Assembly: GCA_963920705.1 (NCBI GenBank)
Contig: OY987226.1
Location: 18,695,600 to 18,759,599, forward strand
Source of the DNA: Odiellus spinosus
Taxonomy: Eukaryota > Arthropoda > Arachnida > Opiliones > Phalangiidae
Direction: 5' to 3'
Length of the DNA stretch: 64,000 nt
The notes below the pieces were generated by a model. It did not search any database, was not told where the DNA came from, and saw nothing but the letters and a program-made list of their open reading frames with translations. Shown one piece after another: positions 50,954-53,493 of the stretch. The translations under genes were made by a program, and so were the position numbers. The stretch's first letter is position 1. Each line of letters opens with the position of its first letter.

Positions 50954-53493
50954 TTAAAACCATTTGGGAGAACGACGACCAAGCAGAGATAACTGGTCAT
51001 TAAAGTTAACCGTGAAGTCAGAGTTATCCGGAGATCTAGTGGCGCTGCTCCCTCGTCGACTCGGTGACAAATCCGAACTCCCGCGACGACTCGGGGACAA
51101 ATCTGAACTCCCTTTCCTAGACGAAGCGATTCTACGACGATGCGGTGATTTATCCGAGTCCGACTCGATCTGGTATTTTGTTTCACGAATTTTCCCGGTC
51201 AAAGATACCAATTCAACTGTCGAATCTGGGGACAATGTTGAGGAAGAGCTGCCCCGACGGCTCGGCGAACTTTCTTTCCTAGGTACTTCGGCGCTGCTCG
51301 GAGTCAGTGAGATTCTACGATCCGATGACTTGCCCTGCTCAATATGACATTTAGTTTCCTGAACGTTTCCAGTCATAGGCACCACTTCGACCGTCGGTAT
51401 CGCCTCTTTAGACGGAGATGGTGGGAATTCTATGGTAACGTCTTTAGGGCGAATCGCGCTTCCTTTCGGTTTAGTCGCGGCTTCAACCTTTAAGTCTATT
51501 CGACCCTCGTCTAAAGTAAAAGCGGCATTGTCGTATCCTGTTTTGGGTCTTTTTGGTGACATTAGTATTTTTTTATCCACCAATTTGATATCTTCTTTGA
51601 CTTCCATTTCGGACGGTATATCTATTACTTGTTCTTCCGGACTGGTTACGACCGGTTCTTCGGGCGGTTTCGTCACGGGTACAGGCGGCGGTGGCTTTTT
51701 GGTTACTTTAGCGACCGGTTTAATTTCGGTTTCTTTTTCTCCAAGTTTAAATAATGATTTAGCTCCTGGTTCAACTTCAGTTACATCTGTCCCGGGTGGT
51801 TTAATTTCGATCGTTTTCGCCTCAAATGGCTTAGCTTCGATTATTTTCGCCACGGGTGGTTCAACTTCGATCGCTTTCATCGCGGGGAGTTTAGACCCAA
51901 GTGGTTTAACTTCGGTTACTTTCGCCCCAGGTGATTCAAATTCGGCTACTTTCATCCAAGGTGGTTTAACTTCTCTTATTTTACCTACAGTAATAACTCC
52001 AGGTATAACATCAGTTACTTTCGCCCCAGGTACGTTCGCCCAAGGTGGTTTAACTTCGGTTGATTTAGCTACAGGAACAACTCCATGTATAACATCAGTT
52101 ACTTTCGCCCCTGGTTTACCTTCGATTAGTTTCGCTCCTACTTTAATTTCGGTTTCACTTGACACTGTTTTAAGTTTAGTTATTTTCATTCCTGGTCTGA
52201 CTTCGGCCGCTTTGGCTCCCGCTTTCAGTTCAGTTAGTCGCGCTCCTGGTGGTTTGACTTCAGTTACTCTCGTCCCTGACTTAAGTTCGGCTACTTTCGC
52301 CCTTAATTCGACCTCAGTCACACCTGTTCCTGGTTTAATATCAGTTACTTTCTTCCCTGCTGGTTTGACTTCGGTATCTTTCGCTCCTGGTGGTTTGACT
52401 TCGGTATCTTTCGCTCCTGCTAGTTTGACATCGTTAACTTTCGCTCCTGTTGGTTTGACTTTGGTATCTTTCGATCCTGCTGGTTTGACTTCGGTATCTT
52501 TCGATCCTGCTGGTTTGACTTCGGTATCTTTCGATCCTGCTGGTTTGACTTCGGTATCTTTCGATCCTGCTGGTTTGACTTCGGTATCTTTCGATCCTGC
52601 TGGTTTGACTTCGGTATCTTTCGATCCTGCTGGTTTGACTTCGGTATCTTTCGATCCTGCTGGTTTGACTTCGGTATCTTTCGATCCTGCTGGTTTGACT
52701 TCGGTATCTTTCGATCCTGCTGGTTTGACTTCGGTATCTTTCGATCCTGCTGGTTTGACTTCGGTATCTTTCGATCCCGCTGGTTTGACTTCGGTACCTT
52801 TATCTCTTGGTTTAACTTCGGTTGTTTTCGCTCCTGATGAGGTTTCGGTTACTATCGCTCCTGACGGTTTGACTTCAGTTGCATTTGCTCCTAGTTTAAG
52901 CTCAGAAATTCTCGATGATGGTTTCGTGTCAATTTGATTCATTACCGGTTTCTTAATTTCAGTAACCGTGAAGCCTTGTTTCTGTTTTATACTATCTTGC
53001 GCTTTGGCGCCAATATCAAAGCCGACTTTTTTCTTTTCCTCTGGCGTGTATTTGGGTTCCAAAATAGGGGTTCCGCTTTCAACTGGCGTGCAATTGGTCG
53101 TCGCAGCCTTGTAGTCCTCGATTTCCTCTTTTTCCCTCGCAATCCCTGGTAGAAAATCGATGGATCGTGATTTTCTTCGTAGTTTGTTTTCCAGTTGGGC
53201 GCTGATTTCTTTTTCTAGTCGTTGTTTCAGGCTATCCGTTTTCATCAGGGTGTGTTTGTTCTTGGTTTTTCCGATGGGTGAACCGCCACTAGAGAAAATC
53301 AATTCTCTCCATTTTAAAGAACTTCTGTTGGGTGTTGATTTGTTTCCGGCGGCAGACATGGTCAATTCCTGGAACTTCCGCTTGATGGTTTCATCGTTAT
53401 TCGTTTGGTCTTTTTTACCAGTATCTTCCACCAAGCTGATGCTGAAGTCTTTCAACAAACGACGTTCTCTGATTTTAATTTTCTTGCCAGCGG
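50954..53493 (-). CDS. trp: trp last exon: 846-codon C-terminal tail
   Basis: One exon codes half of the visible protein. It starts with [17 protein letters not shown], matching the conserved stretch after the TRP C-terminal linker. The next 180 residues are basic and Lys/Glu-rich. A long Lys-Pro/Thr-Glu-Val-rich zone (about 52,950-51,700) includes eleven tandem copies of [11 protein letters not shown] proline patch ([16 protein letters not shown]) follows. The end is Arg/Ser-rich, with [10 protein letters not shown] repeated, and finishes [10 protein letters not shown]. Drosophila TRP also has a KP-rich tail of tandem decapeptide-like units, but the unit sequence differs. The tail lacks membrane segments and is probably disordered and cytoplasmic. 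The frame stays open through the whole exon, so it appears functional. Confidence 0.92.

Follow-up and report, generated by a model that had tools for sequence, protein, structure and literature searches.

The Locus and Its Genes

The window, i.e., the whole stretch of 64,000 nucleotides that was analyzed, carries a TRPL-like channel gene on its minus strand and, upstream of it on the same strand, the end of a second TRPC channel gene. The last exon of the TRPL-like gene contains a long in-frame repeat array. The features are the following.

50954..53493, minus strand: last exon of the TRPL-like gene, encoding a cytoplasmic tail of 846 residues that ends SPKWF (gene model)
51698..52924, minus strand: whole array, 43 units of K-P-x-G-A-K-x-T-E-V (units placed by hand, alignment and simulation)
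51698..52456, minus strand: 27 older units on the C-terminal side of the core (wrap-around alignment, z 15.2; protein-level constraint in simulation)
52457..52786, minus strand: young core, 11 units of 30 bp encoding one decapeptide, with a variant in the last unit (nine of 11 identical in DNA, variants in the end units)
52787..52924, minus strand: five older units on the N-terminal side of the core (wrap-around alignment, z 6.1)
53494..60018, minus strand: twelve upstream exons (ankyrin repeats, TRP_2, Ion_trans) and introns (gene model, Pfam)
63611..64000, minus strand: last 129 codons of the neighboring TRP gene, ending KPIRKGPWL, the rest of which lies beyond the window (L008)

The model of the TRPL-like gene has 13 exons and 1,653 codons with no internal stop; the modeling did not recover its first coding exon. 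Pfam matches to Ank_2 (1.2e-8), TRP_2 (3.5e-24) and Ion_trans (1.7e-24) place the predicted protein, with its ankyrin repeats, TRP_2 domain and six-helix ion channel domain, among the TRPC channels, and its best match among solved structures is Drosophila TRPgamma (9vqq, alignment spanning residues 29-827). The last exon (53493-50954, 2,540 bp, with an AG acceptor) consists of two split-codon bases and 846 codons including the stop. Its frame is stop-free, and the exon is intact as originally predicted. In a codon test this repeat exon scores only 0.06; a set of 2,000 noncoding samples reaches 0.07 at most.

The distal part of the tail (about 51044-51259, minus strand) has four R[RK]GSS motifs, which we take to resemble basophilic kinase sites, and three of the four are in tandem units of 30 bp (Tandem Repeats Finder, 51048-51112). 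Directly downstream of the trpl gene, a long inverted repeat is visible by eye at about 49985-50167, and this is perhaps a small DNA transposon.

The open reading frame at 63611-64000 scores 0.25 in the codon test, as compared to the maximum of 0.07 among the 2,000 noncoding samples. This frame runs on into a TRPC gene that groups with Drosophila TRP, and therefore, trp lies next upstream of trpl, head to tail on one strand, the TRP stop being 3.6 kb away from the first TRPL exon that was found. A second array of period 30 occurs between the two genes (62710-63131, 13.6 copies, 74% matches); by eye, its sequence is unrelated. Other elements include a retroelement remnant at 43467-45104 (minus strand), which has an RVT_1 match in 44003-44704 (E 1.5e-8) and a piece at 43470-43922 that is GIY-YIG-like by eye and has no Pfam match, and tandem arrays at 1002-2708 (period 100, 17 copies, 92% matches) and 4321-4758 (period 33, 13.3 copies, 90% matches).

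A third TRPC gene is located on another contig (C14), and it shares 73% identity with Drosophila TRPgamma across 792 columns. Its tail (L030, about 2400-4462, minus strand) carries degenerate repeats of the RKSS...D type and has YGWI as its C-terminus. The pore has 21 matches in the genome, of which nine are in these three TRPC genes (three each) and the other 12 are weaker and lie elsewhere. Viral contigs scanned with the pore gave one pattern match and no relative.

A Young Core within an Older Array

The core consists of 11 in-frame units of 30 bp (52786-52457, minus strand). Ten of the 11 units encode the same decapeptide, and the last one differs by an E-to-K change; every unit contains a single S and a single T. 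Nine of the 11 are identical in DNA, the first unit having a silent GCA/GCG change, and so, the variants are confined to the two end units, a pattern that would be produced by an exchange process that homogenizes the middle. The original prediction had described eleven 30-bp units, most of them identical in DNA and encoding a single decapeptide, at 52471-52800. The units are there, in an interval of equal length displaced by 14 bp, and a recent expansion inside an intact coding exon is supported by the near identity of the core and the stop-free frame.

The 60-base double unit occurs eight times in the window and was absent from 100 dinucleotide shuffles. Tandem Repeats Finder reports 52356-52836 with a period of 30, 16.1 copies and 92% matches. 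A whole-genome search with the DNA unit, of a kind that passes over very common words, gave seven matches, all within the array and in no other place, and scanning prokaryote and viral contigs for exact repeats gave none.

What the original prediction missed is that these 11 units constitute the young core of an older array. With units placed by hand, the array totals 43 units (52924-51698, minus strand): five older ones, the 11 of the core and 27 older ones, with the consensus K-P-x-G-A-K-x-T-E-V. The commonest residues among the 32 older units are K1 (22), P2 (20), G4 (20), A5 (19), K6 (23), T8 (19) and E9 (23). In wrap-around alignments, the core unit matches the rest of the tail on the C side (z 15.2) and on the N side (z 6.1); against the channel part it does no better than shuffles (z 0.1). 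Counted over 21 to 30 aligned bases, the units differ from the core unit by 0-1 base within the core, by two at units 18 and 19 and by five to 13 elsewhere. An 84-bp in-frame duplication (51956-52115, 1.9 copies, 88% matches) is present in the older part of the array. A plus-strand open frame of 524 residues also covers the array, and it was rejected as a gene because it runs from one stop to the next across a repeat with a period divisible by three.

The whole tail matches one Pfam family, PF25296 (Decapeptide repeat region), with 49.5 bits (cut-off 45). This family is probably the repeat of bacterial IcmE/DotG, as judged from a PDB match (7muc, E 9e-32). The two share a ten-residue period and have K, AG, K and E in similar places. 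However, the core alone scores 40.5 bits and the older C-side units 15.5 bits, both under the cut-off, and alanine-rich probe repeats score 64 and 73 bits. We consider membership unlikely and read the match as convergence of period and composition.

Constraint on the Older Units

When the 27 C-side units are aligned automatically, pN is 0.34, pS is 0.53 and dN/dS is 0.49; a manual alignment that takes in all 32 older units gives a dN/dS of 0.54. These values were compared to a neutral model in which units decay from one ancestral unit, are realigned in the same way and are matched on pS; the model assumes a star phylogeny, a single ancestor and a fixed composition. Mean neutral dN/dS was 0.86, 0.82 and 0.74 at transition biases of 1.5, 3 and 6, respectively. 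Of 1,200 runs, 605 were matched on pS, and none of the 605 had a dN/dS as low or a column conservation as high as the array. In a test by position with 200 neutral runs, the conservation of K1, P2, G4, A5, K6 and E9 was reached by at most four runs. P3 and T8 have little excess conservation (reached by 22 and 21 runs), and V10 and V7 have none (reached by 47 and 124). Within the terms of this model, the older C-side units have changed amino acids less than expected, which supports constraint at the level of the protein. The pressure for a long, charged tail that was originally proposed fits with this constraint.

This result bears on the view that the array is a mutational by-product, i.e., a slippage-prone stretch with no selected role, which lengthens and degenerates in a tail where any in-frame hydrophilic sequence is tolerated. 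Unequal exchange alone would leave a near-identical core with the oldest units outermost, just two substitutions are found among the core units, and two of the 10 positions have no excess conservation. However, the motif of the older units is kept better than in all 605 matched neutral runs, and we consider a by-product rather unlikely.

Another view is that each unit would be a docking or phosphorylation site, with the copy number setting valency instead of reach. Every core unit offers an S and a T, T8 occurs in 19 of the 32 older units and, in fly TRP, phosphorylation has been reported at many sites of the C-terminus (PMC3767779 and PMC4092855). The excess conservation of T8 is nevertheless small, as noted above, and S5 is replaced by A in 19 of the 32 older units. 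Such a binding platform seems unlikely.

Which TRPC Channel Carries the Array?

The Drosophila TRP and TRPL sequences used in all comparisons, including the trees of five to seven rows, are working versions, which were checked against published phosphosites. The phosphosites given in PMC3767779 and PMC4092855 fit them at 16 of 16 residues (TRP) and nine of nine (TRPL).

The window channel is identical to Drosophila TRPL at 439 of 787 positions, to TRPgamma at 413 of 795 and to TRP at 396 of 792. It clusters with TRPL in every tree that was built, with support of 98/96 (five rows), 98/95 (six rows) and 96/94 (seven rows), and 96/95 without the human outgroup; under LG+G4 the support drops to 94/95, unstarred. 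Placement with fly TRP was rejected (p 0.027, five rows), as was placement with the neighboring TRP (p 0.001 with six rows and 0.002 with seven). Placement with both TRPs had a p of 0.036 with six rows, but 0.066 with seven. A TRPgamma identity was likewise rejected, both with fly TRPgamma (p 0.0001) and with the TRPgamma-like C14 gene of the same genome (p 6e-12). The neighboring gene groups with Drosophila TRP at 99/98 (six rows) and 100/99 (seven rows), and its plain identity is about equal to TRPgamma (443/767) and TRP (438/764). The trp and trpl genes form sister groups in the trees. The C14 gene and fly TRPgamma do not form a single clade in the best seven-row tree; a tree constrained to unite them is not rejected (p 0.32), and with the outgroup removed the pair has 100/98 support.

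On the evidence of these trees, the array-bearing gene is a TRPL channel. This does not agree with the original prediction, which had assigned the array to a TRP channel; the adjoining TRP has no array. In the seven-row tree, the C14 gene is by path length slightly nearer to the window gene than fly TRPL is (1.15 vs. 1.19). The window gene could possibly belong to a TRPL-like subtype that has diverged, of the kind described in some insects, since PMC2753570 reports Tribolium and Pediculus TRPCs that cluster apart and PMC4513288 gives the name TRPL to a distant Tribolium sequence.

The Tails Compared with Those of Drosophila

Counted from the conserved ERR(L/I) point, the TRPL tail of this genome has 30 KP dipeptides in 840 residues and the TRP tail two in 292, and the tail exon frame of TRPgamma (C14) has one in 512; the array is absent from the TRP and TRPgamma tails. 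The distribution is the opposite of that in Drosophila, where the working sequences have 27 KP in 470 residues (TRP) and three in 312 (TRPL). Because the array-bearing gene is TRPL and not TRP, flies and this species seem to carry repeat tails on different sister channels. We found no report of a repeat array in a TRPL tail among literature titles and abstract openings, which is weak evidence of absence.

The closest channel domain, that of Drosophila TRPL, belongs to a protein whose tail has no match to the unit (z -0.2). Drosophila TRP, a paralog, resembles the window channel in its tail: it is also a photoreceptor TRPC channel with a long, charge-balanced, KP-rich repeat tail and a W-hydrophobic C-terminus. 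Charged residues make up 33% of the window TRPL tail (net +0.04 per residue) and 37% of the fly TRP tail (+0.05), and P, E, V and K account for 49% of the array. The adjoining TRP gene resembles its neighbor in channel type, strand and a W-hydrophobic end, and differs in its tail. The C-termini of the three channels here are SPKWF (TRPL), KGPWL (TRP) and YGWI (TRPgamma); those of Drosophila we take to be SGWL (TRP) and KHRN (TRPL). Since all three channels here end W-hydrophobic, such an end may have been lost in fly TRPL. The W-F end was dropped as a novelty of the window TRPL for the same reason.

The fly TRP array consists of tandem eight-residue units, DKDKKPG/AD, and the window array was rejected as an example of it. 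The older unit does no better than shuffles on the KP region of fly TRP (z -0.2), nor does the fly unit on the array without the core (z 0.7). In contrast, the core unit weakly resembles that region (z 2.6) and the fly 8-mer array alone (z 3.9), and the fly unit matches the window array as a whole (z 6.1), owing to its core, which is rich in K and D. The original statement that the unit differs from that of Drosophila TRP consequently holds for the older units and less clearly for the core. We would read the likeness of core and fly units as shared K, D and KP content; it is still the best evidence for shared descent.

Shared descent would mean that the ancestor of TRP and TRPL was already KP-tailed, and that the tail persisted in fly TRP and in the TRPL of this species and disappeared from fly TRPL and from the TRP of this species. 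The similar KP numbers (27 and 30) and charge balance of the two tails, the weak core likeness and the W-hydrophobic ends of all three channels are what this scenario would predict. It requires two losses, however, the periods are unlike (10 vs. eight residues), and the older and fly units fail on each other's arrays, all of which make it distinctly unlikely. It is most improbable that the core copy number is an assembly artefact, as 330 bp is short relative to contigs of 34.5 and 19.7 Mb, the reading frame is kept and the end units of the core have private variants. The rest of the array, being divergent, cannot be such an artefact. The assembly comprises 443 Mb in 286 contigs, contig C2 being 34.5 Mb, which would suggest long reads.

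Proposed Origin and Role

The reading that we favor, and consider somewhat probable, is that of a TRPL-type subunit of the light channel with an old array of 43 units, a recently multiplied core and a role as a spacer. A unit close to C-side units 18 and 19, two substitutions from each, would have multiplied recently to 11 copies, presumably by unequal crossing-over or slippage. The array would then act as a flexible, nearly charge-neutral polyampholyte spacer with a high content of K, P, E and V, and it would determine how far the distal tail can extend from the pore. The distal tail includes the RRGSS cluster, which resembles kinase sites, and the W-F C-terminus, which resembles a PDZ ligand. 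At a contour length of 0.36 nm per residue, the tail would measure about 305 nm and the core 40 nm. In a charge-hydropathy comparison, the core and the whole tail are on the disordered side, and the 409-residue array is marginally on the ordered side (0.434 vs. the boundary at 0.429).

In flies, TRP anchors INAD and TRPL is probably not attached to the complex, as stated in PMC4092855, and the search for an anchor of fly TRPL was still ongoing according to PMC3282777. One could imagine, although we find it doubtful, that the same KP-rich tether with a W-hydrophobic, PDZ-type end has grown on different sisters, TRP in flies and TRPL here, that the tail-bearing channel anchors the signaling complex and that the core represents a length that is still being adjusted.

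Work on cockroach and moth (PMC4513288 and PMC6698658) indicates that, in dim light, TRPL is the main channel or the one present in larger amounts. If the reading proposed here is right, a repeat tail would not be a trait of TRP, but a solution that can arise on either sister channel, and the two lineages would provide a natural experiment on the role of long channel tails in phototransduction. The number of units and the identity of the tail-bearing paralog would then be a readable measure across species of different visual habits.
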